NCBI GenBank assembly: GCA_030374765.1
Contig: JARGXX010000129.1
Span: 992,001 to 1,056,000, forward strand
Reading direction: 5' to 3'
DNA: 64,000 nt
Source of the DNA: Agarophyton chilense
Lineage: Eukaryota > Rhodophyta > Florideophyceae > Gracilariales > Gracilariaceae
Shown: positions 27,705 to 58,569 of the stretch, in pieces
How positions within the stretch are numbered: position 1 is the stretch's first letter
How the letters are laid out: each line of letters opens with the position of its first letter
Position numbers and translations under genes: made by a program
The notes under the pieces: model-generated
What the model was told of the DNA's origin: nothing
Seen by the model: the letters and a program-made list of their open reading frames with translations, nothing else
Database searches by the model: none

Positions 27705-27976
27705 GCGCCGCCTACAACTACAACGGCAGCGACGACGATAGCAAAGACGAGCACGCCTTGAGCGTCTGCGGCGGGTCGTCTGGCGCGGCGGTGGCGCGCT
27801 CCATGGTGTGCGCGCGACGGCCACTCCTAAAGAGCCACTCGCGCCACTTGCAACTAGAACGGCAGCGACGACGATGGCGAAGACGAGCACGCCTTGAGCG
27901 TCTGCGGCGGCTCGTCAGGCGCGGCGGTGGCGCGCTCCATGGTGTAGGCGCGACGGCCACTCTTAAAGACCCACAC
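27705..27976. repeat. 136-bp tandem duplication at the 3' end of ELP4
   Basis: Two head-to-tail copies, 27705-27840 and 27841-27976, with a constant offset of 136 bases and about 90% identity. The right copy encodes the last residues of ELP4; the left copy lies just past its stop. It is probably a local replication duplication that extended the 3' UTR. Confidence 0.85.
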
Positions 27977-40486: not shown

Positions 40487-40984
40487 CTAGGGAGCCACGC
40501 TGCTACACTGCGTCGCCACATATTGTGTAGATAAACAAAACCAGCAAAGGAAGGTGCCTGTTGCGGGGTCTCCTAATGCCGTTGTGGTTGGGTTTGGTTG
40601 CACCTTATTAGGGAGTGCCATTGCCGTTGCCGTTCTGTATAAGGGCCGCCCACCAACTTCGTTAGCATATGGTACTTCCAAAACCGGGTGGGGTGGAGCG
40701 GAGACCATCGTTGAAGGAGTCGACGGTTGTTCCATCGGTATCCTACCCGGTACTGAACTCGACCAGTTGGAACTGGGAAACGAATGTTCACCGACCTGAG
40801 AGGTGTCGATGAGATGGATCGTTTGACCATGAGTTGTGTGCTTGGCTGATCCTTCATCGGTCGTGGACGCTTCTTTGATACCGAAGACTGGCCGTTTCGG
40901 TTTATTCTTTGTCCCCTTCGGTGTGGGAGCCACTGTCTTTTTCCACATTCGTAGGGTATCTCCAAGGCCCTGTGCATAGGTCTG
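40487..40984 (-). pseudogene. Chromovirus 2 gag, C-terminal part
   Basis: Contains TYAQGLGDTLRMW, aligned with QFARAEGEALRA of chromovirus 1 gag, a basic Pro-rich region, and a degraded zinc knuckle CWFCLSTQYVATQC near 40500. The N-terminal part of this gag is 17.6 kb to the right. Confidence 0.65.
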
Positions 40985-41001
40985 TGTTCTCGGAATGCTA
41001 G
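40985..41001 (+). repeat. Left terminal inverted repeat
   Basis: TGTTCTCGGAATGCTAG, exact reverse complement of 58553-58569. Followed by CTAG repeats at about 41011-41022 and 41069. Confidence 0.8.
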
Positions 41002-41231
41002 ATAAGTGTGCTAGATAGCTAGTTTTGTAAATAAAAAGCCAAAAAATCAAAGACTTTTGCAGATTGCGCTAGTTCGGCACCTGAAAAAAAAATTTTGGAA
41101 ATAAGAACTCCATGCATCTTAGTGTTTTGACGACTTAATGCAGTTTAATCTGCATTTGCAGTTTACTGGTCACTTTTGACCGCTCTAGGTGGAGATCCAT
41201 ACCAAGGCAGTCGTCAGTACCTTCTACCTCA

Positions 41232-41883
41232 TTACTGGCCCTTTTGCTTACTAGGCTCCAGCGTTCCACCGGGAGGGTATTTGATGTTGAAGAAGTCCAC
41301 CACCGCATTCTCAACCTCGTCCACCTCCCCACGGCTCAAGTTCCTCACACCCGGCTGCCCCACCACACACACATTCCCACCCTTCTTCTCCACATCCTTA
41401 CCAACCCTCCTCTTCTTCAGCCGACTCTCTCCAACTCCTCCCCCTTTCTATTCCTCTCTCCCCTTCTTCATCCCAGCCGGCTCCCCGCGTCTCCCTGGCG
41501 TCACCAGCGACCCTTTCGCTCTCCCCCTCTCCTCTCCCACCTCCTTCAACACCTTCCGCGCACCCGAAATCTCCCCCACCCCTTCCATGTGCACTTCCAA
41601 CACCTTCACACGCCTCTTCAGTTCCTCATTCGCCCTCCACAGCTTCCCCATCTCGAGCCCCATGGGGATCAGCTCGACATCGCCAACGCCCGCGAAAGCT
41701 ATCGACAAGAGCCACCGCAAGCGCAAGCGCACTCACCTTAGTGCGGCCAGTAGTACCCGCAGCCTCCCACACAGCACCCCCCCTCGAAAATCCTCTCGCC
41801 CACCTCCGGCCTTTTATCTCCTTTTTTTGACCCGCTTTTCGCGCGCGCTCGCCCAATTTCAGTACCCTCGTACACCCCTGCAT
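41232..41883 (-). CDS. Small basic coiled-coil protein, probably spliced
   Basis: Purine-rich coding strand is minus. A frame from 41883 (MQGCTRVLK, Lys/Arg-rich) reaches a consensus donor (AAG then GTGAGT) near 41730. Resuming after CTCGAG gives MGKLWRANEELKRRVKVLEVHM..., an amphipathic helix. Another frame near the left end reads well as protein (RNLSRGEVDEVENAVVDFFNIKYPPGGTLEPSKQKGQ, stop at 41232), so at least one more intron or a frameshift is needed. Not recognised. It is the leftmost gene of the transposon. The pyrimidine-rich plus-strand ORF over the same bases is a shadow. Confidence 0.4.
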
Positions 41884-42273
41884 CTACGCTCCAGATTCCC
41901 TTCACCACACTCATTGCTCACTCACACACTCCCATCCATATTCCTACACCTTCTATCATGTTCAGCGCTCCCTCACTACTCCCAATTTCATAGCCTTCTC
42001 ATTTATAGTAAATCACACTCATTCGTAGCACAAACCACCGATTACTCATAAGCCCTCTTTCCCGTATGACTTCCATAACAACACACACTCCTACACTTTT
42101 AACACGATAAACACCATTCAATATCAGAAATCTAACCTCCTTCCCAAAAACCCCTAACACCCATTCCTCCACAACCATACTCTTTCTCTATTTAATCACA
42201 TCTCCACACTCGCCACCCCCACCACTTCTTCAATTCCAAGCACACCGCACTCCAAACACCTTTCGCAATCAAC

Positions 42274-43098
42274 ATGACCGACTTTCTCACTGCCATCCCT
42301 TGCACCTCCGCCCCAGCCGTTATTGTCGGCAGAGGCCGAATCGGCACTTTGCTTCGCAACAACGGCACCCCACAAGATGCTTTTCTCTCAACTCAAGAAT
42401 TCATCTCCGCGCAATACATCCCCGACGGCCCCACTTTCTTCTGCGACAGAAATCATTCACTCGAAGACGTCATTCAATTCTGCCCTTCCTCCCGCAGAGA
42501 GGATCTGGTCTTCCTTCAGAACGGAAACATTCTCCCTCTTCTTTCAACCTATGGGCTCCAAAACTTCACCAAAGCCGTTCTCTTCCTCGCCGTCCCCTCC
42601 CTTAACGCACCCCCCGAGGACGGTGTCACCCTCCTCAGTCCCCATGGTCTCACAAATGCCACCGGCAAATGGGCTCCCGCACTCGCCAATCGCCTCAGTA
42701 CCGCAGGCCTCACTTGTCATGTCGTCGACCAGCCCTCCTGCTCTAAAGCTTACTACGAAAAACTCGTATGGATATCAGCTTTTAATCTCGTCGGCTCCTC
42801 TTATGGCTTTATTACAATGCACGAAGTTGCAGTACAACACCGCACAGTCGTTTCAACCATAATGAAAGAGCTCCTCGCCATCGTCACATCCGAAACAGGA
42901 ATCGCCTACAATTCAACAGAAACACTCCAAAGACTTCTGGCCCACGGAAAAACACTTACACAGTTCCCCACCTCGTTCTCAGACTTTGAGTTCCGGAACG
43001 TCTACTTCTACAACGTTTCTAACGCCCAAAAATCCATTGGAAACCGTGACCCCGCCCCTTTCCATACGAACTTCTTGAACGTCCTCCTCAATGGGTAG
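42274..43098 (+). CDS. Rossmann oxidoreductase, ketopantoate-reductase-like, plant/cyanobacterial type
   Basis: 274 residues, ATG in good context (CAACATGA). The N-terminal NAD(P)-binding fold is VIVGRGRIGTLL (GxGxxG, residues ~16-27). Then EDLVFLQNGNILPLL, a block typical of a family of photosynthetic organisms distantly related to PanE/ApbA. The C-terminal helical domain has YEKLVWISAFNLVGSSYGFITMHEV and a final FPTSFSDFEFRNVYFYNVS. The substrate is unknown. The frame is intact and an AATAAA follows at 43122. A metabolic gene inside a transposon is odd; capture from the host genome is likely. Confidence 0.72.
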   Translation: MTDFLTAIPCTSAPAVIVGRGRIGTLLRNNGTPQDAFLSTQEFISAQYIPDGPTFFCDRNHSLEDVIQFCPSSRREDLVFLQNGNILPLLSTYGLQNFTKAVLFLAVPSLNAPPEDGVTLLSPHGLTNATGKWAPALANRLSTAGLTCHVVDQPSCSKAYYEKLVWISAFNLVGSSYGFITMHEVAVQHRTVVSTIMKELLAIVTSETGIAYNSTETLQRLLAHGKTLTQFPTSFSDFEFRNVYFYNVSNAQKSIGNRDPAPFHTNFLNVLLNG

Positions 43099-43474
43099 TA
43101 CTTCATTCATATACCCCTTCCAATAAAAACAAGTCCTCCTTTTTAAAGCATATACCCATCTCCTTCGCTGCCTCGATAGAGACTGCTATCCGCACGACAC
43201 CACGTCAGAATATATGAAACGATATTAAGAATTGCTTCGTACATCACAAATCATCACTACAACCACTCTTCATAAATCTTCCAACTTTGCAATTAAGTCT
43301 GTACCCAATAACCGCTCCTACAGCCTATCAAAGGTTTTCATTCATAACAATTATTCATACTCCGCGACAGAGATACGGCAACAACCTAACAACTACTTTG
43401 ATCACTACATATATATATCCACCGATGACCACCCTACTTCATTGCGCTCAACATACTGTATCTCCTTCAAATCA

Positions 43475-44542
43475 AACTTCCAACCTCCCAGAATGTGGTC
43501 GAAGTCAGAGGGTTCCAGAATCATATCACCAACGAGCTCATGGACGAGATTCGTGACATTTGTACGACCACCAGGAGGCTCCCCACTCGCAACTCCCTAC
43601 AGCAGCAAGATACTCTGAAACAACTGTTCAAAGAGCGGTATCATATCGTTACCTATGTGCAGCGTACAAGGAAGACTAGCAAACCGGAACGCCTTTACTA
43701 AGATGTTCAGTTAGCAAACACTCTTCACATCGACCTTAACGTTCACAATCACACTAACTACACTCTTCGGAGTTATAGACCCAGCTCTGCAATATACGCT
43801 TCCATTCAGATTCAACTCTCTCCTTCGGTTCATTCTCATAACGCTATTGAGATGTTCTATCCAAAGCCTGCTACACATTCTCATAATCGAAGGAGGCGTA
43901 CAATGTATAAACGCGTTATACGGGTCTCTACAAACTACGCCGTTCAATCCAAACCAGCGATATACCAGGAAGAAACGAGCCTTTCTGGAACTCGGGGCTC
44001 TACTCCTTACTCTACTCATCCCCCTCAACGCCATGCTTTTCCTCGTTCACCGCTTCATTCCAGTCAGCGGTACCCTTTCATCAGACGTGAAGACAAATTG
44101 TATCGCCTTCTCCACAGGAGGGGCCGCAGTTGGCGCTTTGGCATATCTTCTCCAGCTTGTTTCTATATTTTTCTTTCGAGAGTCCTATCTGAACACAAAG
44201 TTCACAATGACCCCGGAACCACGGAGAACCTCTTTTATGAACCCCGTGCTTGGCGCCCTCTCCCACTCTTTTCAACAGGCTTTATTCATATCCAGTCCGG
44301 ATGTAACCTTCCGACTACTCGGTATGAGGCTGTCGGCATGCACTTTCGCTGCACTCTCTTCAACCGCCTTCTCCACCTCTCGCATTGAGGGACCTGGTGT
44401 TTCTATACTGCTTGGTAACACAGTGGATGTCGTAATCTTGATATCTTCGACAGTTGTCATTCACTATGAAAAAGTGAAAGCAAGTGCTACTCTCACGCGT
44501 TTCAATCCAGTTGTTCAGGAGTTTCTACTGAAATACAACTGA
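43475..44542 (+). CDS. Multi-pass membrane protein, probably spliced
   Basis: The downstream frame is open from 43715 to the stop at 44542 with no early ATG. It encodes several hydrophobic segments (SLLHILIIEGGVQCINALYGS; AFLELGALLLTLLIPLNAMLFLVHRF; GGAAVGALAYLLQLVSIFFF; VSILLGNTVDVVILISSTVVIHY). A TACTAAG branch-like sequence (about 43697) and a TTAG acceptor precede it. An upstream frame ending at 43701 (NVVEVRGFQNHITNELMDEIRDICTTTRRLP...) looks like a preceding exon. The first exon and start codon were not located. Not recognised. Confidence 0.45.
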
Positions 44543-44623
44543 TCACTATTACAAGAAAAGGGGACTACTCCACATATTACCTCAAATTGTACTCTTTATT
44601 GTTCAATAGGTAACAGATACTAT

Positions 44624-46066
44624 CTAGTCGTCGTCGTCATCCATTATCATACCGCCGTCTTCATAGTCTCTATCTGTGTTAGCTGAGTTTAGACCCATCC
44701 CAGGTTCATCATCCTCTTCTTCATACTCCTCTTCCCCACTTTCAACAACTTCCATTTTATAATCTTCATTCAACTCCTCATCCTCATCTACCTGAACGTC
44801 TTCATCATCACCCTTGTTGGAATCATCCTCTTCGAACTTAGGCCGAAATGCTGGTTGCCTATGCACTGCGTCCGGTAGCTTGTACCCATCCGGTACCAAG
44901 TACATGTGATACCTCATGCAAACTTCCTTAACCAATGCATCCTCGTATCCAGCTCCAGCATGAAACACATCTCCTCTTCCAATAAAAATGGAGTACGGCG
45001 GAATCCTGAACTTCCTCACTACCATCGTCCGAGACAGCCGCTTCAAGCTCCTGTCGTCGGGCACGTACATGTTATGTGACCTCTCACAAACCCAAAGCAT
45101 AAACGAACTCGCTCCCGACGCCATCATGAAGAACCCTGGAACCTCTCCGACGTTCTTCTCGGCATCGGTCAGTCCTCGAAAGTCCGTATGTAACACCTGC
45201 CTTGGACAGCCCTCCGCCGTACACAGCACTCGCACCCCTGTTTCAGGGGCATACATCCTCTTCTTCCCCGACCTGTTGTTGCACAACTGAAGAGCGGCCG
45301 CAATCTGTCCAAACCTCGTATCCAACATTGCCCTTTTCCTCACCATTAAAACGTTGTTCTCGTCCCCCTCCAAAGAATCCACAATCCCCACCTTCGTCGT
45401 AATGTACCGCCCAACTCCCTTCATTCTATCTCCAGCGTCTCTCTCCTCACCAGCGTTGATTATAGGGTCCCATTTCTTTCTATTCCCTTCAATCGTCAAG
45501 TCCGGCTGGTTCAAGAAATCCGTCTGGAAGAACTCTAGCAAAGTCCCAGTCACATCCCCATCGAAGTTTACCCCCCTCTTCTTCGCCTCATCCGACATCC
45601 CCTCGTCCGTGGCAAACTGTTCCAGCACACAAAATCCTTTCTCCATCAGCTCACTTCTCTTAGTCGCGAAGTACTCGCGGGCCAAGTCATTCCTCTCCTT
45701 TGCTGCCATCCATATCGCCTGCTCTTCATTCACAGGGTGGTCCTTCGTCGGTAGAATCACCCCAAGAACCGGTTCTTTCGTAGAACCCAGTTCCTTGTGC
45801 CTGTTATGAGCAGCACGCCAATAAACTGCATGGTGCACACTTTTCAAGTCTTCTACCCTCAAGCACTCCGCCCTGTGCTTGTTCCGTAGGTAAATCATCT
45901 GCATCCAGAGGTGCTGATGCTTCACTCCATTTTCACCCGCCGGCCACTCGCTCGGAAGTGCATTCACCAAGTACACCCACGACATACCCGACCCCCCCGC
46001 ATACGGTCCCGCCCTCTTCAGCCCCTTCGGAACACCCTCCGGATTATTGCCTTCGAAGCCACGCAT
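44624..46066 (-). CDS. 2-oxoglutarate/Fe(II)-dependent dioxygenase
   Basis: 480 residues from the first ATG (46066). The double-stranded beta-helix core lies at ~290-390: VLHTDF (His293, Asp295, metal ligands), IPPYSIFIGRGDVFHAGAGY (distal His369), then CMRYHMYL, with Arg385 placed to bind 2-oxoglutarate. The N-terminal ~140 residues are helical, with MEKGFCVLEQF typical of the entry to such folds. The C-terminal 75 residues are extremely acidic (DDEDVQVDEDEE...DDDDD). The subfamily is unresolved: TET/JBP, AlkB and other nucleic-acid oxygenases are all possible. The frame remains open upstream, in frame with the ParB-like ORF and separated from it only by TAA (46163-46165). Confidence 0.7.
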   Translation of the reverse strand: MRGFEGNNPEGVPKGLKRAGPYAGGSGMSWVYLVNALPSEWPAGENGVKHQHLWMQMIYLRNKHRAECLRVEDLKSVHHAVYWRAAHNRHKELGSTKEPVLGVILPTKDHPVNEEQAIWMAAKERNDLAREYFATKRSELMEKGFCVLEQFATDEGMSDEAKKRGVNFDGDVTGTLLEFFQTDFLNQPDLTIEGNRKKWDPIINAGEERDAGDRMKGVGRYITTKVGIVDSLEGDENNVLMVRKRAMLDTRFGQIAAALQLCNNRSGKKRMYAPETGVRVLCTAEGCPRQVLHTDFRGLTDAEKNVGEVPGFFMMASGASSFMLWVCERSHNMYVPDDRSLKRLSRTMVVRKFRIPPYSIFIGRGDVFHAGAGYEDALVKEVCMRYHMYLVPDGYKLPDAVHRQPAFRPKFEEDDSNKGDDEDVQVDEDEELNEDYKMEVVESGEEEYEEEDDEPGMGLNSANTDRDYEDGGMIMDDDDD

Positions 46067-46162
46067 TTGCACACCTTCCTCCTCTTCGTCTCCTACAAAT
46101 GCACCCTGCCCCCCGTCATCATCCAGTTCATCCTCACTCGATGAGAAAACATTGAGTACATG

Positions 46163-47911
46163 TTACTTCAAGAAGCACTTCAGCTCTTTCCTGCTCATCT
46201 TCTTGAACACATCCACCACGTAAGCAGGTATTTGAGCCGCAGATGTGCCCACCGTCTTTCTCCTCTTCCTCTTCCGCTTTAAAGGCTGTTCATACTCGCG
46301 TTCATAATCACTAATGACCACAGCCTTTCTCTTCCCCTTTCTCTGTCTAGGTTCCATCACCCTCTCACCCGCAGCATCCAGCCCGCGCTCAGTACCTTTT
46401 CTAGTTCGTGTGATGCGTCTGGGAACCACGGTTTCCTGGTGGGGTACAGACTCCCCAGCACTAGACGAAGGAACATTCACAGAAGGTGGCACCTCCACCA
46501 CATCCTTCTCCGCACTTGGGGACGCCAGACTCACTTTCAGACCGCCTTCAATCCGCCTTTGTGCGATTTTCATCCTCTTCGACACCAACCCCGGCCACAA
46601 CCGCTTCGGACCACTGAGCTTCATCTTCGCCGTTTGCATGCAAAGGTACTCCCTTAAAGACACCTCGTTCTTTCCCATCACAATTGTGCTGTCTAGAACC
46701 TTCCCCGCCGTCAGACCCTTCTCCTTTCCCGCCCTTTCGCATAGTTGGAACATTCCTATGGTGCATTGGAAGAACTGCTTTCGAATCTCCTGGAAAGGTA
46801 CCATATTCCCCGTAGAACCCATCCTCACCCTCACATGTAGCTGCAAACGACGGATTGCGAAACGGAATATTTCGTCTTCGAGTCCTAGCAACAAGTCACT
46901 CGACACATGCGCAAGCGTTAGCACTGGACCCTCCTTGCATACGTTCTCAAAGAACTCCAGGAGACCTTCGCCCCTGACGAATTTCAACCCAAGAGTCGCA
47001 TAGCGATTCAAGTGGCGCAAGCTGTAGATTCCTATAGCTTCGCTCGTCTTCAGCGCCCCAGCTATCCGTGTCGGAGTCAGGTCAGCCAACTTGGTTCTCT
47101 TATCGTCAATCAAGTTGCAAATGAAGGACACTGTCGAATGAACCTTGTCAGCGAAACTCATCTTCAACACATTTGAACTCATTTCATTGAGTACATTACC
47201 AAGACCGAGCACTTCGTTCAGCGATAAAGGCTTCCGGTCCTTTCGTCTCCAAAGAACGACATCAAGAGACCGCACAATTTCCAACCACTTTCTCCCTTCA
47301 GAGAGATCATTCTTCAGATCTCGCAGAACAAAGACGCGGTGATGACCGTCAATGAGTATGACAGGCATCACTACCCTCCCATTGTGAACAATTTCACTGA
47401 AATCTAATTCCATTCCCCCGACGATGGCAACAGCAATCGACCCTGCCGACGCAAGCCAGCCAAACGTTTTGCACTTTGCCATCGTCGCCGCCTTGTGTTC
47501 TGCATTCACACTTCTGACAGTCTTCTCGGGGATTTGTATGTCATCTATGTCAACAATCAAGCGGCACTGGTCATAGTCTGAAGCAGAGATCTTCTTTTCC
47601 ACGAGAGTCCTATCCACTTCCTGCGAAGGAACGGCATCGCCGTCATCGAACAACTCCAACTCGGGACCGGTGTGCAAATCCCCGCGTACATTCACCGCTG
47701 ACCCCACCTCCACAACATCTTCATCAGAATCATCCACTATCGTCACCCTCTTTTTCGGCTTGACGGGTTGCTTCATGGCCGGCGGCACTGTTGTTGGCTG
47801 TGCCCTCTTCCCCCTCAAAGGCGTAGCAGACTCCTTCGAGGGGGTCGCACTTTTGGGAGTCTCCGGGCGAGGAGGGCCTGGAGTCAGCACAGAGGAGACG
47901 CGTGTCATCAT
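46163..47911 (-). CDS. ParB/sulfiredoxin-fold protein
   Basis: 582 residues. Residues ~115-200 form a ParB/Srx-type domain: LIVDIDDIQIPEK, then VMPVILIDGHHRVFVLRDL, with the DGHHR motif at ~188-192, the phosphate-binding loop of ParB-like and sulfiredoxin proteins. Residues 200-440 are helical and not recognised. The tail is basic (KRKRKRRKTVG), like a nuclear localisation signal. The ATG at 47911 comes 9 bases after an in-frame TGA that ends the preceding ORF, and the stop TAA is followed in frame by the dioxygenase ORF. ParB-like domains occur in CTPases that bind palindromic DNA, in nucleases and next to DNA methylases; which applies here is open. Confidence 0.65.
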   Translation of the reverse strand: MMTRVSSVLTPGPPRPETPKSATPSKESATPLRGKRAQPTTVPPAMKQPVKPKKRVTIVDDSDEDVVEVGSAVNVRGDLHTGPELELFDDGDAVPSQEVDRTLVEKKISASDYDQCRLIVDIDDIQIPEKTVRSVNAEHKAATMAKCKTFGWLASAGSIAVAIVGGMELDFSEIVHNGRVVMPVILIDGHHRVFVLRDLKNDLSEGRKWLEIVRSLDVVLWRRKDRKPLSLNEVLGLGNVLNEMSSNVLKMSFADKVHSTVSFICNLIDDKRTKLADLTPTRIAGALKTSEAIGIYSLRHLNRYATLGLKFVRGEGLLEFFENVCKEGPVLTLAHVSSDLLLGLEDEIFRFAIRRLQLHVRVRMGSTGNMVPFQEIRKQFFQCTIGMFQLCERAGKEKGLTAGKVLDSTIVMGKNEVSLREYLCMQTAKMKLSGPKRLWPGLVSKRMKIAQRRIEGGLKVSLASPSAEKDVVEVPPSVNVPSSSAGESVPHQETVVPRRITRTRKGTERGLDAAGERVMEPRQRKGKRKAVVISDYEREYEQPLKRKRKRRKTVGTSAAQIPAYVVDVFKKMSRKELKCFLK

Positions 47912-47920
47912 CGAGGTATC

Positions 47921-48310
47921 TCATGCGTATATACCTGCCGACACCATATCCTTCAGCAACTCCGGCGGCTCCTCTGCTCCCTTGAAGGAGTACGGATACT
48001 TGGAGTTGATCCCCTCCTTAATTTCAGTCCTCCAGATGGCCACCAAGTCCTCTCCCGGCTTCGCAGACTCCCGCAACGAATGGCCATGCATCGCTCTGCA
48101 AAGTGCCTTCCCGGCCCCTCCACTGCCCCCAACACCTCTCAACTCCGCAGTACCAACCATAGTACCCTTCTTATTCCCTGTCCCATCCGCCAGGAACAAC
48201 GCCACCCTATCCCCACCAGCCAGATTGTTTCCCGATGTAGCTTTCCGCGGAGTGGCACGTGGAGTACCCCGCGGAGTACCCCTCGCTTTCGCTTTGCCTC
48301 GAGTCATCAT
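47921..48310 (-). CDS. Small basic protein, in frame with the ParB-like ORF
   Basis: 129 residues. Begins MMTRGKAKARGTPRGTPRATPR, a basic AT-hook-like GTPRG repeat, followed by a compact Gly/Lys-rich segment (VALFLADGTGNKKGTMVGTAELRG). It ends at TGA (47921-47923) and the same frame continues into the ParB-like ORF, which also starts with MMTR. It is either the true N-terminus of one large protein broken by a nonsense mutation, or a separate small gene. First gene of the leftward cluster, next to the palindrome array. Confidence 0.5.
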   Translation of the reverse strand: MMTRGKAKARGTPRGTPRATPRKATSGNNLAGGDRVALFLADGTGNKKGTMVGTAELRGVGGSGGAGKALCRAMHGHSLRESAKPGEDLVAIWRTEIKEGINSKYPYSFKGAEEPPELLKDMVSAGIYA

Positions 48311-48600
48311 TTGAATCGGATCGTAGTCGGTCGAGGTTGCAAATGGTCGCAGAGCGCTTTGAGCCTTTTATGGTATACAGACTAAGACGTGTTGGATCGA
48401 GCTCCTTTGGTGGCGACTATCCGGAACACTCCCGAGAGCAGTTCGTTGCAATCAGCCTGAACTACGTCCGCTTAGTTTCAACCTGAGCTATGTCCGCTTA
48501 GTTTCAAACTCAAGAAACTCCTTGTCTCTTTCCATCGCAAACACGCCTATTGGCTTGGTAGGCGACACAAGAAAATAAAATTAAAAAATTAAAAATATCC

Positions 48601-49416
48601 TGACGGCCGACAGAGGTGCGCTCCGACTTCATCGGGGGTCCCGATGAAGTCCCCGCGCACCTCTGTCGGCCGACATAATACATATAATTTTGTAATTTTT
48701 GGAACGCTCAGGTGTACACGGTGCACTCTGACGGCCGACAGAGGTGCGCTCCAACTTCATCGGGGGTTCCGATGAAGTCCCCGCGCACCTCTGTCGGCCG
48801 ACATATTACATATAATTTTGTAATTTTTGGAACGCTCAGGTGTACACGGTGCACTCTGTCGGCCGACAGAGTTGTGCCGGGACTTCATCGGGACCCCCGA
48901 TGAAGTCGGAGCGCACCTCTGTCGGCCGACAGTCGACAAACATCTCAGAAACGCATCATGCGTGATGTTATGGCGTATTTGTCGGCCGACAGGGGTGCCC
49001 TGCGACTTCATCGGTCCACCGATGAAGTCGCAGCACACCCCTGTCGGCCGACAATTAACCAACATGTTGTAGGGACACCATTCGGGCTATTTGTGGGCCA
49101 CCAGGAGTGTGCTGCGACTTCATTGGTGGACCGATGAAGTCGCAGGGCACCCCTGTCGGCCGACAAATACGCCATAACATCACGCATGATGCGTTTCTGA
49201 GATGTTCGTCGACTGTCAGCCGACAGAGGTGCGCTCCGACTTCATCGGGAGTCCCGATGAAGTCCCCGCGCACCTCTGTCGGCCGACAGAGTGCACCGTG
49301 TACACCTGAGCGTTCCAAAAACTACAAAATTATATGTATTATGTCGGCCGACAGAGGTGCGCGGGGACTTCATCGGGACCCCCGATGAAGTCGGAGCGCA
49401 CCTCTGACGGCCGACA
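48601..49416. repeat. Palindrome array: seven 75-bp hairpins in a symmetric super-palindrome
   Basis: Hairpins at 48601-48675, 48729-48803, 48857-48931, 48980-49053, 49092-49165, 49214-49288 and 49342-49416. Each is flanked at its base by the 12-bp palindrome TGTCGGCCGACA (or a one- or two-base variant) and has arms running through GAGGTGCGC to CTTCATCGG. Spacers are also symmetric. The 48-nt spacer 48932-48979 is the inverted copy of 49166-49213. The 53-nt spacer 48804-48856 is the inverted copy of 49289-49341 and a direct repeat of 48676-48728. The centre lies near 49072. It sits between the two divergent cargo gene clusters, so it may hold both promoters, an origin or a partition/binding region. 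Confidence 0.95.
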
Positions 49417-49589
49417 GAATGCAACCAGGATAGCTGCGAAGTCCTTCCGCAACAACCGTTCCTCCGTGCGCGCTCCTCAACCGTACTCACAATCTTTCCG
49501 TACCCACCCGCACCCACCCGCACCCGCTGCTCTTTTTCACTCAGGCTCTTGTGACGACCGCCCGTGAGGTTGTTTGAACATGTACATAA

Positions 49590-52050
49590 ATGGCTCCAGA
49601 ACCCACGAGAACTTCTTCATCGCCTGCGGCAGACACCTTCGAAATGGGTAAACTGTTTGGTACGGGGGATGTAGTTATCAGGGCGTGTCTGGATTTGCGT
49701 GATCGTTACGCATTAACGAGGCGGGAGGAAGATGAGCAGCGAAAAGTGGGGCACACTGCATTCATCGATTTCACAATTGCCAATCGCCACATCCTACCGG
49801 AGACCGCGAAGATTTTTTATACTCTCCCAGGTCCCTACCACACCAATTACACAGAAGATGAGCTCCGAGTTGTAGGAATGAGGGGCTCGAACTGTCAGAA
49901 TTATTTCTCGGCGAGGTTGCTGGATATAAGGGATGGGGACCCAGATAGGCGCGTGAGGGGCTTTTGGAACGCGACGAGGCGGTGTAGTTCAAGGGCATCC
50001 CGAAGAATGACACTTTGACAGAGTTCTTCAAAGGTCTGGATACAACCCGAAAGAAGGCGAGCAAAAGCCGGGCTCCATTCGCGACCGACTTCACGACAAT
50101 GTTCCAGAGGTTGCTGTTCCTCATTTGTATTCAGTCAGTCTCTATGGAGAAGAGAAGAGTCTCCCGTAAGCGAAGAAAGCGGGGCAGATCCTACGATACG
50201 CCATTTTCGAAGGTGGCGATTTATGACAAACCAGTAGCTCAGCGTGTGGGCTTTGGTGTGCAGCTCGTCAATAACGCGTGGGACAGCTTCGCCCAGTATT
50301 TGGGATTCCCTGGCGTGGAATTCATGGTTTTGCCCTTTATCCATCTACGATATTCTGATATGCAGTTCCAGGCAATCGGAAACAGAAGGGATGGGTTCTC
50401 TCACAAGGACTTGGCCCAACGACTCCTTCCTGGTAGAAACCGTACTTTATTGGAGGAGGATGTCGTCCCATGGGCGTGGAACCTGCCGGAGTACGTTGAC
50501 ACTCCACTTCGTATGTTGGCCAAAGAGTTTCTCGCTGACCTGCACAAAGTGGTGGTGAATGAGCAGCTTTACTCTATATCTGCTCCGGTAAGATGGGACG
50601 TTCTAAAACCGTTTACATACACTTTGCCTAGAGTGTTTGCGGAGAGATTCGACTGCTTCTCGAAATCTCTTATCTCTACCATCTCGGAATACATATCGCC
50701 ACTAAAGCTGCGAGGGAGTGTGGAGGTGGAGGTGGTGGCTGCGACAAAGGCGGAACCTACTATGGTTATGGAAGAAGATGAGATAGAAGTGGTACCCCCT
50801 GAGAAAGATTCGGAGGCTCCGGCGGTGGAGGGTGGAGAGGGAGTGGAGGGTGGGACCGGGAATGAGGAAGAGAACATGGGTGTTGGTCAGCATTCTTCCA
50901 CAGCTGGACCAAGGTCGGTCGAATCTGAGTCGGTGGATATTCTGCCGCCTCACGACCTTACTTCTCTGGATGATATAATGTCTCTCCAAAAGTGCGAGTC
51001 GGAGATGGATAAGCACTGTCGAATGTACAATTGTACTTTCGAGAACCTGGTGGAGATTGACGAGACATTGCGCAGCAATGGGGTCTCTCCGATAGGGAAA
51101 GTGCAGTTGGTTCTCACGGACCCGCCGTATAATATACGTGCGAAGAAGAACAGGAAAAACAGCTGGTACGACGTTCTTAACCGGCAAGACATGGTGAAGA
51201 CGGCGAAGCTCATCTCTAAACTTCTGCGTCCGGGAGGGCATTTCGTTATATTCTGCGCGATTGAGCAGGTGAACGAATGGAAAGAAGTGTTGGGTCGAAT
51301 CGGTGCAAAGGATGAGAATGGGCAGAAGAGCAGGTCGTTTGTCGTGGACAAGGTCCAGCTGCACTTCATTCGCTCTCAAGGCAATCCGATGCGTAATCCC
51401 GGACGTAGTTCGTGCTCCCTGTTTCCCGGAACAGAGTACGCCATTCATGGAGTTCGCAGCGGGTTGTCCTACGCCGAACAACATGGCATGGTGAACTATG
51501 AGAACTTCAGCTATGTACCATTGCGATATCCGGGTTACCATAGCGTGATTGACCAAGTGCCTCCCATGTCGAATGGTGAAACACTTCTATGGAGAAGGAA
51601 GAATGCCAAAGGAGCAGTTACGTATCAGAAAGTGCGGGCGGAACAGAAGTCACGCGCTTTGCTGAAGGAGCTCATCAGCAGGTTTTCTCAGCCGGGAGAC
51701 ATAGTGGTGGACCTCTTCGCCGGACATTTTCAACGGCCATGGCATGCATGGAACTGGAAAAGCACCGTCAGTTTCTAGGGTGTGAGCCAGATCCGCAGTG
51801 CTTTGCTCATGCAAAGCACGCCGCTACAGTGAAATTTGCGTCATGCGTGCGGAACAACGAGACGGACATTCATATAACGCAAGATGTTCGGAACGCTGTG
51901 ACTCGAGTGACATGCTTGTTTCCGGACGTCGTCATAAAGCGTTCGAAGTCCTGGAAAACACCTACCGGATTTCCCGAGCATCAGATGTTTCTACCCCATA
52001 TCGTGGATTTTCTCTCCTCCATGTGGCAGTCGCTCTCTCTCTCTTCAACC
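49590..52050 (+). pseudogene. Beta-class DNA amino-methyltransferase (DPPY), broken
   Basis: Starts at the ATG 49590 (MAPEPTRTSS). An N-terminal unrecognised domain of ~400 residues is followed by an acidic linker, then the methyltransferase: QLVLTDPPYNIRAKKN (motif IV, ~51110-51160), LRPGGHFVIFCAIEQ (~51230), and motif I at the C-terminal side (GDIVVDLFAG then TFSTAMACMELEKHRQFLGCEPDP). Motif IV before motif I is the beta-class order seen in CcrM/HinfI-type enzymes, and DPPY favours N6-adenine. Lesions: a frame change near 49955-49965, an in-frame TAG at 49985-49987, and a one-base loss near 51725 inside the SAM-binding FxG motif. After that the frame runs without a stop into the next gene. 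Confidence 0.75.
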
Positions 52051-54709
52051 ATGGCTCCGAAACGCAAATCGAGAAGCGAGAACACTAGCGGGCGCGGTAC
52101 AAAATCACGGCGGCATGGAGGGGATGCAGAGGGCGGAAGGGACAAGGGGCGTAGGCTCCAGGGCGCGAGTGGAGAGAAGGGAGGCGTGCGCCTGAGAGGT
52201 AGATCAAGGCAAGATGGTGGGGAAGGAGAGGCGAGTGGGGGCAAAGAAAAGGCTGTTCGCGCAAAGGAGACGGTGACGGAGGAGAGTGCGGAGCAAATCA
52301 CGTCGCCCACGGAGCAAATCACGTCGCCTACGGGAGAGATGGTGCGGAGCGGCGATGGAAAACGGGATGGCGTGCGAAGCAACCGCACGCGTGTACCTAG
52401 AATTGGATTGAGGGGGAGGGCGAGCAGAGCTCCAGGGAGGACAAGGAGAGGGGATGCATCCGAGCGGACTCTAAGTGCTGTACTCACGTCTTCAGCTGAT
52501 GTGGAGCCGGTAAATCCATGCTCTGCACCTGAAGGAGGTGAAGAGATTCCGAATGAGAGGACGAAGGGGCGTAAGGAGGGAGAGAGAATGATCGGAGAAC
52601 GTGGATCCCGCCTCAGAGGCGTTGAAGAAGCAGGGGCATCGTTTACGGGTATGAGGGAAGAAGACGGTGATGATGAGATACAGAAAGGGAGAATAGAGAG
52701 TAGCCGTGGTGGGGAGGGTAGAATAGGTGGACCCAGTAGTGTTCTAATCGCTGGCGCAAGAGTCGTTCGAGAGAGAACAGAAGGAGAGAGTGTTGGAGTT
52801 ACCGCGGGGGAACAGGCAGAAAGATGGGAGGGGGCGAACTTGGATTACGTGGAAGAAAGGAGAGAGCGTGTAAGGGAAAGAATGGGGAGTGTTCGAGTTA
52901 CAAGAAGAAGAGCGATAGACGAAAGGGAAAGCAGAGAAGTGCATGTGAGTGAGGGGGGGAGAAGGGGGTTTGCTGGAGGGAGAACACATGGTTCAGGGGA
53001 GGAAGGCGATGGAAGAGCAGCAGTTCTTTCTCATCAGGGAGAAGATGTCGAGCGTTTGCCATCTAGAAGAGGGGTGGGTTTGGGAGTTGAAGGGTTTGAG
53101 GTGAACGCAAGGCGAAGGACGCAGGAAGGTATGCGAGTAAGGAGAAACATTGTATTCACAAGGAATAATGATAACGGGGAGAATGCGAATTTAAATGTCG
53201 TGGAGAACGCCGTCCGTATAGTGGAAGATGAAGCAAATGATGATGACATAGGTTTGTTGCCGCGGTCGATGCTAATTGAGAAGATGAATGTGTTGAAGGG
53301 ACAAATGGGACGTATGAAGGAAGACAGCTACAGTGCGATGGTGAGTTTGAAAATGACCCAAACGGAGCTGGATCGGGCGAGGGAGGAAATGAAGCAGCAG
53401 AATGTGCTGATTGAGAGTTTGAGTGAGGCGTTGAAAAGTAGAATCGCTGGGGAAGGGAGGGGGGAGGGAGGCGTGAGGCGGCGACGAAAGTATGACATTG
53501 GAGTGCAGGAATGCTTTTATGGATTTGCACGTCGTGCGTATGATAGGATTCTTCATTGTGCAAAACTGGAGGCATCGGAACTTTGCTTCTACACCGAGAA
53601 TGTGGGTCGAAGCTGGAAGAATAGAAGTGAGGCGGTTGGGGAGAGTAAAGAGGGAGGAAAGTATGTTTGTGGTGGGAGAGAAGGAAATGGTTCCGAGATG
53701 TCCAATTGAGGTTGCATATGAGATGAGACCGTATAAGCCGTCGACAGAGGGTGGGAGCCATTTGTTGTTGAAGCACGTGGTAGAGACTGAGTTAATGGGA
53801 GAGAAATGGGATTCGATAAGGGAAGCGGGGAGGAGAGAGGAGTGCGTGGAAAATGTAAGTGCGGATAGGTGCTTGAGACAGAGGATGAAGCAGAAATTGA
53901 GCGATGTGGTTGGGGTGCGGAAGCGAGCAGCGCGTGATAAGCTGTTTTCCATGCTTGGATATGATTTGATCGCAAAACGAGCTAAGGTGACTGAAGGGAC
54001 GGAGCTTTGGGCGGAGTTGAAGAAGCAGATTGAGGAGGCGCAGGAGAAGTTGATGGGGTCGGGGGAGGATGGGAGAGGTAAGCTGTGTGCGTGGAGAACG
54101 AGTGCGATTGAAGATATTACTTATTCTGGATCGAAGGTGTCTGAGAACTTGGAGGACTTTGGTGAGGCAGATATGAATTTTCGAAATCAGGTGTCGTTGA
54201 AAGTGTTGGAGGAGTTTATGGGCTACGCGGTAGAGAGTCACAGAAATGGAGAAAGGCAGTATGTGGATGGGACGGTGATGCATCTTGCGCGACTTGATGC
54301 ATGGATTGGATGTGTGGTGACCACGATGGATAGAGACGTTGGGCGGGGAGGCCAAAGGCAACTTTTGTTCTCGACGCTGTTTGGGAGGTTTCTGCCACTG
54401 GCTGTTGAGGACATATTGAGGGTTGCCTGGAACATGGTGAAGGATGAGTATGCTGAGGAGTTTGAGAATGATGGATTCTGTGGAGGGAATCGTAGAGATG
54501 TGAGTGGGAATAAGGAGAGAATCGCGACGGTTGGGCTATGGATACCGTCGAGAGAGAAAATCTATCTGGCGATAAGGGAGGAGTTTTTCATGGAGAATCT
54601 CACGAGAAGACTTGCAGCGGTGTTAGATTGCTATATAGCGTCATGTGGACCAGAAGAACCACGGTTCAAGCGCTTAGCGTTGGGGAGTAGGCAAGGAGTG
54701 GGAGAGTGA
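52051..54709 (+). pseudogene. Large basic coiled-coil protein with one frameshift
   Basis: The probable start is ATG 52051 (MAPKRKSRSENTSGRG), although the frame is open from the methyltransferase upstream. Residues 1-370 are highly charged and Arg/Glu/Gly-rich, with short repeats (EQITSPT twice) and RG/RGR motifs. A coiled coil follows (LPRSMLIEKMNVLKGQMGRMKEDSYSAMVSLKMTQTELDRAREEMKQQ). Near 53610-53650 the coding switches frame and continues as VPRCPIEVAYEMRPYKPS... to 54709, an all-helical C-terminal domain of ~350 residues with no recognised family. It ends 87 bases from the convergent transposase stop. An accessory DNA-binding or transposition protein is a guess from position. Confidence 0.5.
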
Positions 54710-54796
54710 TAAGGTACGGGGGGATAAGGGGGTAAGGAGGTGGAGCAAGATGGGGGTCGGCTATGGAAGAAAAGCAGCGGTGACTATTTTATTGGA

Positions 54797-57700
54797 TCAT
54801 GTGCCTTGGGAGGTATTATTATGGGTGCCACCCAGTGGTGGTGTTGTGCCACCAGTGGTGATGTTGGAGAAGTAGGGCTTCGCAGTTGGGTCTCGGTAGA
54901 ATCTGTTGAAATAAAATCGATGGAAGCGCCAGTGCAATCGAGGGGTGAAAGGGGGTGCGGGGTAGTTTTGGCGAAGTACATGAACGGGGCCGAGAATGGA
55001 AGAGGATGGTACGAGGCCGAACCAGGGGGAGACGTTGTCGGAGTTGGAAGTGTTTGAGATAAAAAGGGGGTGGGCAGTGTGGTTTTGTTCGTCGTCTGTT
55101 GCCCATCGGAGGCAGATGCAATTGAGAGAGACATCGACTTGATCCTGGGGTGGAACGAGTTCGAGGAACTGAACGAAGGCGAACTCGTTATGAGTGGAAG
55201 GGGAAGAAGGGGTGGTGAAGCGAAGAAGAGAGTTGAGCTTGCAGACCCAGGCGGTGGGAGTGGGGTTGGAGAAGCTGGAACCGGCAACGAGGATGTGGGA
55301 GAACTTTGGGATTTTAGAGGAACCGAAGGAGGGAGCAGCGAAGATACGTTGAATGAGTGGGAGAGGGGGATCTTTGACGGCGAGCTCGTTTCGATCGGCG
55401 ATGTATTCGTCTAGGGTTGGGGTGAAGCCGCTGACGACGTATGCGGAATTGACGAGTGTGAGACGGGTTTGGCGGAGAATGGGGGAGTCCTGGTTGAGAG
55501 CTAGTGTTTCGAGTATGATTGTGACGAAGGAGGGGAGTGCGAGGGTTCCAATCTGTGAGATGATGGCGATAGTGTCTGGGGAGAAGAGGTCCTGAAGGGA
55601 AGAGATTGTTGCGTGGGGGTTTGCTAGAAGGAATTTTTGAGCGGTGATGAGATCGGAAAAGGAGGTGTGCTTGACATCACGGACGAAACCTGGTTTGCGG
55701 GCTTGGAAGGGAGGAGGAGGGTCATGGGAGGATGAGGTGACGGAAGGATCAGCGGAGAGAGAAATCCAATTGTTGACGGCATCGGAGCGTTCGATGGCAC
55801 GGATGGTTTCGTTGTGCGCGGTGGGTCTGCGCTTGGAGGTTCGGGAGTAATGTGCTTTGAAGAGGGTATGGGCTTGTTCGAAGATGCCTGCATCGTTGAA
55901 GTGGAGACCCCCAAAGCGTCGAATGTCGTCTACGATGTGATCCAGGAGGTGGAATTTGAGGGTGCCAAGGGTGGAGGTATGGTATGGACCGGGAACATCG
56001 ACAGCTCTGTGCTTGAAGGAATGGATTTGGGAGGCGAGTTTGGCAAGACGAGAAGTGGTCCATTCGGGGACGGAGTTGTAGCACATGGAGGTGAGGAGGA
56101 GGTCTGTGTACTTGGAGAAGACAGTTGTGATGGGAGCGGAATTGGCTTCGTCACAGCAGCGGTCGAAAAAGGCGCCGATGAAGGGGAAGACCATGTCGAG
56201 GGCGCGGTAGTCTTTTGCTTCTAGCATGCCGCGGACGCCGTCAGTTGTGAAGAAGCCGTTGAGGGACTGCCCGCTTTCGGAAGTAGAGAAGTCGATGTGG
56301 AGGCCGGTAGCTGGGGAATGATTTTCGATGGCGGTGAGGATGAAGTTGGAGTGCTTGAGGATGGAGGTGCGGACGGAGTGGAAGGAACGGCGGGAGTTTG
56401 TGGAGCTGATGGTGGTGAAGAGATGTTCTGATCTGAGACGTTCGATGGCGGCGAGCTTGATGAGTTTGGAAACGCCGAGGTGGAAGTTGTGGAGGGGTTC
56501 GAAGGGGAAGATGTTGTATGGGGTGAGGAGGGGGGTGATGTTTAAAAGGGGGTAAGACTCGAAGAGGGAGAAGTATTTTGCGAGGGAGAGGGAGTGAAGT
56601 GCTTGGAGAGCTTGTTCCTTGAAGTTGCGCGAGACTCTTGGCTTGCGGGCGAGGAGACCTGCTTCGGAGTCCTTGAGGAGGGAGAAGTGTTTGTTGCGGG
56701 CTGCAAGGGTGAGGGGAAGAGATCGAGGGGGATGGGCGTGAGAGTGTTGGTGGAGTTGTGAGCGAGGGACAGAGCATCTGTGGCAGGGGTGCTGGGGGCG
56801 GGTGCCGTGGGAGATGGCGAGAATATCCTTTGCCACGGGAATGTCCGCGCAGGAGCTGGCGATGATGGGGTGGCATTGACGAAGATCGCCGTCTGCGTCG
56901 CGGAAGGGGAAACCGGGGAGGGCGGAAGAGAAGAGAGGTTGAAGGAGGGAGGAGATGGTCTGCTGTATGAGTTCCATTTTTGTTTGGCGGGGGATGGAGG
57001 AGGAATGAGTGATGATATCTGCATCTGGAGAAGGAGTGATTGGGGTGAAGGAGGTGGGAAGATAGCCGAGGAGTGTGAGATTGTCGGAGATGCATTTGTG
57101 GCGAAAGGAGTCGGAGAAGTTGAGAAGGGTGATGTGGAGGGGGTAGGAGGTAATGGAAGAAGATTTGAGAGAGGTAGAGGACTTGTCGGAGTAGATTTGG
57201 ACGAGGCCGATGAAGGAGTCGATACCGGTGGAGTGAGGGAGATGCCAGACGATGTTATCTTTTGTGGACTGCATGATGGCGGTCTTGAGTGCGGGGACGA
57301 CCTTTGAGCCGAGGGTGGCTGCCATGGGGTGTGCAAAGGCGGGGGAGCCGGAGGCGGATGTTTGGGAGATGGGGTGGAAAAAGGTGTTCTTGAAGTGTGC
57401 GAGGGCGAGCTTTTGTTTGAGGACATGGATTGCGTCTTTCTGGAAAAGGGTTGGGGAGAAGCGTTTGTGGGGATCGAAGATGGTGGAGGGGGCGAAACCA
57501 ATGGACCTGATTCTCTGGTGGAAGAGGTCTGCCTGGAGCTCGAGGCATTGCTTTGCGGAGGAGACTGAGTTCCGGAATGTTGATTCGGAGAAGTGGAGAT
57601 CATTAAGGAGAGTGATGAGTTCGTTAGCCTTTCGTTGTCCAATCTTGGAGGCGATGGAGGAGATGTAGAGGACCATTTTCTCCAGGTGGGGGTTGTCGAG

Positions 57701-58060
57701 GGGGAGAGTGGAAGGAGGGAGGGGGGAAAGAGCGAGAGAGGAGGGGGAACCGAGAGGGGCAGTGGCGACGTGGATGGCGTCCTGGGTGTGGAGGGAGAGA
57801 GAGAGCTGGTCTTGGAGGTAGGAGTCATGGTGTGCGAGAGGGACGTTGTCGGAAGGGCGATGTGAGGGAGGAGGATGAGGGGGGAGTTGTGAGGTGGACT
57901 TGTGGCGTTTTGTGCGGGGGGGGAAGCTGGGTTCATTTCCGCCAGGGGAGAGGAAGCGCTTGTTGGCGGAGAGGCGATGAGGGCACCTTCTCTGGTGCCG
58001 CTGGAGGGCGGGGATTTCTCGGGCGAAGAAGGAGCAACCGTTGAAGCAGCAGGAAGGCAT
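54797..58060 (-). CDS. Plavaka/CACTA-like transposase with N-terminal zinc finger
   Basis: 1087 residues from ATG 58060 (context TCCACCATG); the open frame extends 39 codons upstream without better support. Residues 4-28 are a C2H2-type finger (CCFNGC...RHQRRCPH). The core resembles Plavaka transposases: GLVQIYSDKSSTS at ~286-298 (catalytic-type Asp), a YPLHITLLNFSD block, FRDADGDLRQCHPIIASSCADIPVAKDILA at ~387-415, CHRCSVP at ~426, and YNIFPFEPLHNFHLGVSKL at ~515-533, the region matching 'DLLHQLHKGVFK'. The frame is uninterrupted, the best-preserved long gene of the element. Its place near the right terminus fits a transposase. Distinguishing Plavaka from other CACTA relatives needs alignment. 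Confidence 0.72.
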   Translation of the reverse strand: MPSCCFNGCSFFAREIPALQRHQRRCPHRLSANKRFLSPGGNEPSFPPRTKRHKSTSQLPPHPPPSHRPSDNVPLAHHDSYLQDQLSLSLHTQDAIHVATAPLGSPSSLALSPLPPSTLPLDNPHLEKMVLYISSIASKIGQRKANELITLLNDLHFSESTFRNSVSSAKQCLELQADLFHQRIRSIGFAPSTIFDPHKRFSPTLFQKDAIHVLKQKLALAHFKNTFFHPISQTSASGSPAFAHPMAATLGSKVVPALKTAIMQSTKDNIVWHLPHSTGIDSFIGLVQIYSDKSSTSLKSSSITSYPLHITLLNFSDSFRHKCISDNLTLLGYLPTSFTPITPSPDADIITHSSSIPRQTKMELIQQTISSLLQPLFSSALPGFPFRDADGDLRQCHPIIASSCADIPVAKDILAISHGTRPQHPCHRCSVPRSQLHQHSHAHPPRSLPLTLAARNKHFSLLKDSEAGLLARKPRVSRNFKEQALQALHSLSLAKYFSLFESYPLLNITPLLTPYNIFPFEPLHNFHLGVSKLIKLAAIERLRSEHLFTTISSTNSRRSFHSVRTSILKHSNFILTAIENHSPATGLHIDFSTSESGQSLNGFFTTDGVRGMLEAKDYRALDMVFPFIGAFFDRCCDEANSAPITTVFSKYTDLLLTSMCYNSVPEWTTSRLAKLASQIHSFKHRAVDVPGPYHTSTLGTLKFHLLDHIVDDIRRFGGLHFNDAGIFEQAHTLFKAHYSRTSKRRPTAHNETIRAIERSDAVNNWISLSADPSVTSSSHDPPPPFQARKPGFVRDVKHTSFSDLITAQKFLLANPHATISSLQDLFSPDTIAIISQIGTLALPSFVTIILETLALNQDSPILRQTRLTLVNSAYVVSGFTPTLDEYIADRNELAVKDPPLPLIQRIFAAPSFGSSKIPKFSHILVAGSSFSNPTPTAWVCKLNSLLRFTTPSSPSTHNEFAFVQFLELVPPQDQVDVSLNCICLRWATDDEQNHTAHPLFISNTSNSDNVSPWFGLVPSSSILGPVHVLRQNYPAPPFTPRLHWRFHRFYFNRFYRDPTAKPYFSNITTGGTTPPLGGTHNNTSQGT

Positions 58061-58552
58061 GGTGGGTGGAGGAGAGGTGGTGGGAAAGCAGTTGGTAGGG
58101 GGCGTAGACGACGAGAGAGTATGGCGCACACAGGGCACGTGACAGGGGAGGGCGGTGGAGAATAATATAGAATGCAAGGCACGTGAGGTCTGCCAGGTCG
58201 GGCTGCGATTCTATTGCGATTGATATGGATGGTACTAAATGTTCAATTTCTATTTTGAGGTCCATTTTGGGACCAGTTGTTTGTACTAATCTGTCAATCT
58301 AGAGCGCACAAAGATTGAATCTGCTCCTGCACCATTTCTCTACTTTTACCTTTAAACTGCGGCGACAGAAAGATTCACGCTAGTTTTACCTCCATCACAA
58401 CTAGAAAAACTGCAGATATGTGCTAGTTTTCCTTCCCATACAAACTAGCACTAATGAACGAATGAAAATATTTTGGGAAATTAACACCTCCAAATTTGGA
58501 TAAATTAACGGGTTTTTCGGTCATTTCAATTCGTCCTTTTTTGACAACTGAA

Positions 58553-58569
58553 CTAGCATTCCGAGAACA
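58553..58569 (-). repeat. Right terminal inverted repeat
   Basis: Inverted copy of 40985-41001. The ~180 bases inside contain further CTAG-type subterminal repeats (near 58379, 58401, 58424 and 58445), candidates for transposase binding. Confidence 0.8.

Follow-up and report, generated by a model that had tools for sequence, protein, structure and literature searches.

A high-copy transposon of the Plavaka/EnSpm group in a red alga with a predicted DNA methylase–SET gene and a palindrome array

EnSpm/CACTA families of the red alga Chondrus crispus, for which Repbase holds 1181 repeat families (PMC4455052), are described as 16–20 kb long with 4–5 open reading frames (ORFs) (Kojima, Bao and Jurka 2013, Repbase Reports 13:2577-2613, cited in PMC6431247). 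The accessible text of Kojima 2025 (PMC12730594) moves Plavaka transposons to the EnSpm/CMCT side, gives C(2)C and H(3–4)H between the second D and the last E for Plavaka, EnSpm, Transib and RAG1, and assigns to PlavakaB of Agaricomycetes a target-site duplication (TSD) of 2 or 3 bp and the termini CATCA..TGATG. Here we describe a cut-and-paste transposon of the red alga Agarophyton chilense that has a high copy number, was active recently and belongs to the Plavaka/EnSpm (CMCT) group. It lies in a 64,000-nt stretch of contig JARGXX010000129.1, positions 992,001 to 1,056,000 (G000:C128:992001-1056000 of the 80-Mb genome in 135 contigs), hereafter the window, and we are close to certain that this mobile, cargo-carrying DNA element is real.

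The whole element occupies positions 40979–58575 of the window. An earlier note on this DNA had set its boundaries at 40985..58569, from a perfect 17-bp inverted repeat with CTG outside each end; the repeat and both CTGs are present where stated, and comparison of ends moved each boundary outwards by 6 bp. At the left ends TCTG adjoins TGTTCTC in all 27 read, preceded by CG in 25, by GG in the window copy and by CC in one; at the right ends CTGAC is found in 15 of 15 and the next base is G in 14. Because the bases outside TGTTCTC are constant at all ends read, CTG lies within the terminal inverted repeat (TIR) and is no TSD, as which the note had taken it. As CGTCT and CGTCA are inverted counterparts, the six outer bases belong to the TIR, which is 23 bp long with one constitutive mismatch, T/A at position 5. 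Sequence outside these repeats varies freely among copies, and in 12 of the 15 pairs the dinucleotides adjoining the two ends are identical (at a chance of 1/16 for each pair, p is about 1e-12): TA in four, AT in two, and CG, TG, AG, AA, TT and CA in one each. Of the three unmatched pairs, those of copies C2 and C79b are one base off each and that of C1 has a mutated right end. We therefore rejected CTG as the TSD, the true duplication being 2 bp. The subterminal CTAG repeats seen by the earlier note are there, four in the first 150 bp and six in the last 300 bp, with 19 across the 17 kb between.

Empty sites give the same answer at the insertion point. When the two flanks are joined, they align across the junction in all 19 other loci examined, at 78–84% identity (20 of the 40 listed flank matches were cut out, one of them the window itself), and a single TA stands at the junction in all 15 empty loci whose junction letters were printed. 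The search for empty gag sites that the note had proposed thus succeeded at every locus examined. Its description of the flanks survives in part: at 19 of 19 loci they are two halves of one repeated, gag-like sequence, the narrower identity of a chromovirus gag was not established, and the ORF in the left flank has no Pfam match.

The element is present many times. Its first 216 bp have at least 40 genomic matches at 96–100% identity (40 of 107 candidates scored) and its last 270 bp at least 40 at 97–100% (40 of 134 candidates scored). When the listed ends were matched up according to how close they lie and on which strand, 15 elements resulted, the window's included. Ten further copies were read whole besides that of the window (11 in all, 6.8–18.8 kb) and align with it save for internal deletions, and the same ends and gene order occur at more than ten loci with differing flanks. 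A search of the host genome with the two termini, as the note had suggested, thus finds further copies that share ends and cargo and have other TSDs; copies with other boundaries, or the lack of any copy sharing both termini and cargo, had been named as grounds for giving the element up, and neither occurred. Two copies, C10 and C117, are the youngest: they differ from the column majority by 0.10% and 0.08%, as against 1.2–3.6% for the other nine. In both, the frames of the transposase, of a methylase–SET protein and of a ParB-like/oxygenase-like protein are all open. The window copy is older and degraded, with an intact transposase frame and broken modifier genes.

The zinc-finger transposase of the earlier note is there, 1087 residues long and intact in the window, and the profile search proposed for it returned the Plavaka family (Table 1). 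A protein database yielded 11 homologues at 31–39% identity, 10 of which carry the Plavaka Pfam label (7,986 candidates scored). In the alignment of these with the element's transposase (12 rows), D406, E728, C426-x2-C429 and H704-x3-H708 are kept in all 11 homologues, and D292 (numbered by hand) in all nine that reach that position. The 2-bp TSD, seen in 12 of 15 pairs and in the empty site, agrees with Plavaka, for which 2 bp (PlavakaA) or 2–3 bp (PlavakaB) is the rule. The termini CGTCT..TGACG do not match the CATCA..TGATG of PlavakaB, the right being one base off and the left two, nor the TGT..ACA of PlavakaA, since TGTTC..GAACA sits 6 bp inside the true ends; the CAC..GTG termini and 3-bp TSD of EnSpm/CACTA proper were not found either. 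The link to KDZ elements drawn in the earlier note falls away, Plavaka standing on the EnSpm/CMCT side in the accessible text of Kojima 2025 (PMC12730594).

At least 123 Plavaka matches were counted in the genome (123 of 235 candidates scored), many of those listed, judged by eye, not being close to any listed cargo methylase; other Plavaka elements or derivatives are probably present.

The best-defined cargo gene encodes a 1043-aa protein that is predicted to be a fusion of a beta-class DNA N6-adenine methylase and a SET methyltransferase. In copy C10 it matches PF01555 (66.9 bits) and then SET (PF00856, 23.4 bits); the methylase has the beta-class order, DPPY then motif I, and its nearest solved structures are DpnA (E 9.1e-10) and then CcrM. 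In the window the frame breaks at motif I and the SET part is lost. A paralogue on contig C10 (G000:C10:11500-15300) is 35% identical over both domains and nearly full length, with a SET score of 26.1 bits, and speaks for a genuine fusion and for a type of protein that is maintained.

This paralogue is one member of a second high-copy family of this type. The methylase search, with 116 matches from 121 candidates, showed it beside the element copies as 20 hits whose open frames measure 1130 or 1141 aa. The 11 plus-strand hits are no more than 48 kb away from a contig start; of the nine on the minus strand, the two on contigs of known length (C4, C16) lie 4–6 kb from the contig end. The frames point inward wherever the contig end is known. 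Contig C10 starts inside a gene of this type (compared by eye), and no telomere was seen there. The position is possibly subtelomeric, or possibly reflects assembly breaks caused by the repeats. The 2.5 kb upstream of one contig-end gene hold no ORF longer than 185 aa. At C79:655360 and five similar places, a repeated 165-aa frame with one TAG matches the C-terminal part of the methylase profile only, one of the six below the cut-off; these are perhaps another dispersed relic family.

Divergent from the methylase–SET gene runs the gene of a 1228-aa protein with the motifs DGHHR, HTD and FHAG..R. We take DGHHR to be a motif as in ParB-like proteins and HTD...FHAG..R to be a pattern as in 2OG-Fe(II) dioxygenases. 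HTD and FHAG..R are present in 10 of 10 copies that have the region, and DGHHR in nine of the 10 that keep it, the remaining one having DGHHC. Of the 30 full-length places found genome-wide (38 of 338 candidates scored), 8 are without a stop. Pfam includes a Tet_JBP model, and no TET/JBP dioxygenase was matched in Pfam at E ≤ 1 with the whole protein or at E ≤ 10 with a piece of it, HMMER filters applying. The earlier note had listed a methyltransferase, a dioxygenase and a ParB-like protein: the methyltransferase stands (PF01555), the other two are suggested by motifs only and lie in one gene, so that the three parts belong to two genes, and the SET domain, lost in the window copy, was invisible there.

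Between these two genes lies an array of palindromes. The 12-mer TGTCGGCCGACA (at most one mismatch) occurs 13 times in it and once elsewhere in the 64 kb, and the arms of the largest inverted repeat in the array are 362 nt long, 92% complementary and separated by 4 nt; the hairpin potential is extreme. Nine of the 11 copies have the array in this position, with between 2 and 14 sites each; C2 and C1 lack it. Among 39 array clusters, typed by hand from part of the listed rows and with left ends not counted as element genes, 35 have a listed element gene less than 6 kb away, and for 17 the start of a 1228-aa gene is less than 2 kb away; of the four that are not near such a gene, one is 746 bp from a left end and three are unplaced. 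An unrelated nested repeat was rejected on the 35 of 39, and the array belongs to the element. As to its role, our preferred guess is a binding site for the putative ParB-like protein; it might otherwise be a promoter element or a source of double-stranded RNA.

The 891-aa coiled-coil-like protein has no relatives in the family searches made, and of its 31 full-length places found genome-wide (51 of 363 candidates scored), 14 are without a stop. The 274-aa ORF matches NCBIfam NF004887 at E 0.0019, far under its cut-off, and Pfam ApbA_C at E 0.076. A 231-aa frame with a TTG start (43847–44542) has no family match and was left out of the cargo gene count.

Segments present in other copies are missing at two junctions of the window copy (Table 1). 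Introns were considered and rejected as the cause: the aligned junctions have no GT..AG ends, so the segments were probably lost by deletion in the window copy. Short forms also exist. At four loci (C1:1564196, C31:593569, C16:986702, C3:203762), known by distances alone, the left end lies 743–759 bp from the array, against a usual distance of about 7.6 kb, and this shared distance suggests that a cargo-poor short form has itself moved. Among the paired copies, short ones with good ends and a 2-bp TSD are C99b (6.7 kb) and C3 (8.1 kb). The deletion in copy C1 was tried as the common mobile short form and rejected, because its junction is private, found in just one of the 40 places scored out of 137 candidates, which means that decay after insertion also happens.

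Table 1. Features of the element and its flanks, in window coordinates
Feature	Position	Strand	Remarks
Left retroelement flank for empty-site test	40778..40976		
TSD TA, left copy	40977..40978		matching dinucleotides in 12/15 paired copies; single TA in empty sites
Left TIR, 23 bp	40979..41001	+	first base C -> G in window copy; 27 left ends compared
Left CTAG repeats, n=4	40998..41072	+	first within TIR
274-aa ORF, weakly like 2-dehydropantoate 2-reductase (ApbA)	42274..43098	+	weak profile scores
Junction	43462..43463		157 bp more in 7/10 other copies; a larger stretch missing in C135, C88 and C1
ParB-like/dioxygenase-like gene (by motif)	44624..48310	-	split by 2 stops into 582- and 480-aa ORFs; 1228 aa open in C10, C117
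Palindrome array, 860 bp	48577..49436		between divergent 1228-aa and 1043-aa genes
Predicted beta-class DNA methylase (DPPY) gene	49590..52029	+	frame-broken, cut before SET domain; 1043 aa open in C10, C117
Junction	52029..52030		972-993 bp more including SET part in 8/10 other copies; C2, C1 differ there
Coiled-coil-like protein gene	52051..54709	+	two frames in window; 891 aa open in C2, C99a; no significant family match
Plavaka transposase, 1087 aa, intact	54797..58060	-	PF18759 68.2 bits, E 9.5e-19, cut-off 26.3
Right subterminal CTAG repeats, n=5	58299..58448	-	sixth within TIR
Right TIR, 23 bp	58553..58575	-	15 right ends compared
TSD TA, right copy	58576..58577		
Right retroelement flank for empty-site test	58578..58777		

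What the cargo does can be proposed from these predictions. The transposase would cut at the 23-bp TIRs, excising and inserting the element, with the subterminal CTAG repeats as possible accessory sites. Along the element the methylase–SET protein may methylate adenines of the DNA and also histones, the ParB-like/oxygenase-like protein may bind the array and oxidize host marks, the region between the two divergent genes would thereby be kept open, and the cargo would counter or redirect host silencing. Anti-silencing by transposons has precedents in the VANDAL anti-silencing proteins and in Spm TnpA. A transposon with such a self-marking, anti-silencing kit is in our view the best explanation and a somewhat probable one; that the cargo has some epigenetic role is the safer part of it and rather probable, and anti-silencing proper we put forward tentatively, as a little short of probable. 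Among singleton variants, C-to-T/G-to-A changes are more frequent than A/T transitions (3.0% of sites) and most frequent at CpG (9.2% of sites, versus 6.2–6.4% at other C/G), and CpG observed/expected is 0.85 in the element versus 1.06 in the rest of the window, which fits, and does not prove, mild host cytosine methylation of the element.

Several observations weigh against this explanation. The SET score is barely above its cut-off (23.4 versus 22.4 bits), motif I of the element methylase reads DLFAGTFST versus DLFAGTGST in the paralogue, and the DPPY motif is altered in copies C99a and C88; from the F in motif I and the altered DPPY, methylase activity is not certain. The ParB-like and dioxygenase-like assignments are made at motif level only: Pfam, NCBIfam, PHROG, PDB and protein-database searches gave the 1228-aa protein no support, and single-sequence structure models of both parts failed (pLDDT 33 for the dioxygenase-like part, 34 for the ParB-like part). 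All matches in phage comparisons had E 4 or worse (one of two, at E 4, is annotated ParB-like, and that phage protein likewise has no Pfam match), and a search for relatives in viral contigs found none. The coiled-coil gene is frame-broken in C10 and C117, the two youngest copies, and the short copies may have moved without cargo. Across four genes, variants shared by at least two copies give a pN/pS of 0.54 (25 synonymous, 45 non-synonymous; p 0.016 versus neutrality), singletons give 0.81 (p 0.0014), also below neutrality, and the two do not differ significantly (Fisher p 0.13), so selection on the cargo is weakly shown; the ApbA-like ORF, counted apart, has 0.91 for shared variants and 1.06 for singletons.

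These same data bear on the possibility that the cargo genes are passengers captured by chance and in decay, only the transposase and ends mattering. Stops in 22 of the 30 full-length 1228-aa places and 17 of the 31 full-length 891-aa places listed, deletions in several copies, the singleton pN/pS and the short form suggested by the four loci all speak for it, whereas each of the long cargo ORFs (891–1228 aa) is still open in several copies, both youngest copies keep three of the four long genes open (the transposase being one of the four), and the shared variants stand at the lower pN/pS; we consider it unlikely. To a similar degree we doubt that the cargo works for transposition as such and not against silencing, with methylated adenines in the ends or array tying the cutting step to replication, a role that Dam has for bacterial Tn10. 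The methylase would suit this, being of the bacterial beta-class with DpnA and CcrM as nearest solved structures, and candidate targets for it exist in the array and the CTAG repeats; the short copies C99b and C3 with good ends and TSD argue the other way, except that their cargo may have gone after insertion.

An assembly chimera, or nested unrelated insertions, could be entertained in that a single assembly was used, but at more than ten loci, each in other surroundings, one finds the same ends and the same order of genes, and the array keeps company with the genes, which makes it extremely improbable. The self-marking, anti-silencing kit also has a stronger form, which we regard as quite improbable and offer as speculation: a complete self-addressed chromatin-marking system in which the ParB-like protein would seed on a parS-like palindrome array, placed between the divergent genes of the element, and deliver the oxygenase, and the fused adenine-methylase/SET enzyme would write a linked DNA and histone mark, an enzyme type taken up by, or derived from, a repeat family at chromosome ends.

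Transposons with their own epigenetic editors allow the idea of an arms race of mobile DNA with silencing to be tested directly. Those known to us carry one such enzyme each (TET/JBP or DNMT); the element here seems to combine, in one mobile unit, a DNA methylase–SET fusion with another putative editor and with closely packed sites to which proteins may bind. As the genome contains copies of different age and length, full ones can be compared directly with cargo-poor ones for their marks.

The neighbourhood of the element in the window is rich in retroelements, with reverse transcriptase (RVT_2), retrotransposon gag and RNase H domains at 62347–63519, 21654–23639 and 18814–19614; a host-like gene with a PAXNEB domain (65.6 bits) lies at 27854–28858. 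Elsewhere in the genome, contig C39, taken for plastid, holds 7 of 13 phycobilisome-linker domains, the other six being on various contigs; these domains mark the host as a red alga, and the best match of the C39 ApcE among solved structures is the core linker 5y6p, an entry from the red alga Griffithsia.

Among other mobile elements with DNA methyltransferases, the retroelements of dinoflagellates and charophytes carry, to our knowledge, C5-cytosine enzymes with no SET or oxygenase-like partner. Like the element here, they are transposable elements bearing a DNA methyltransferase, a cytosine one in their case, according to the accessible text (PMC5890265). The Plavaka-flanked giant repeats of Amoebidium likewise have large gene clusters adjoining a Plavaka transposase, and differ in their many tyrosine recombinases and sizes up to 50 kb, with no methylase–SET mentioned in the accessible text (PMC11244446). 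A transposon with methylase–SET or ParB-like cargo was not found in the literature searched, most subscription papers and Repbase lying outside its coverage. PlavakaB resembles the element in its Pfam Plavaka transposase, in its TSD (2 bp here, 2 or 3 bp in PlavakaB) and in having the C(2)C and H(3)H motifs located between the second D and the last E; modifier cargo in fungal Plavaka, where present, is a TET/JBP dioxygenase in the accessible text, and none was detected here; that text mentions neither a methylase–SET protein nor a ParB-like/oxygenase-like one nor a palindrome array for Agaricomycetes Plavaka (PMC12730594). The Chondrus crispus EnSpm families share with it a red algal host, size, ORF number and superfamily group; compared by the descriptions available, they may be the same kind of element. 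The earlier note had called the set undescribed on a red-algal element, which holds for the cargo as far as found, with the large multi-ORF Chondrus elements as a close prior. Since Chondrus EnSpm elements and fungal TET/JBP-bearing Plavaka are already in print, the kind of element is known, and it is the gene set that is new as far as found.

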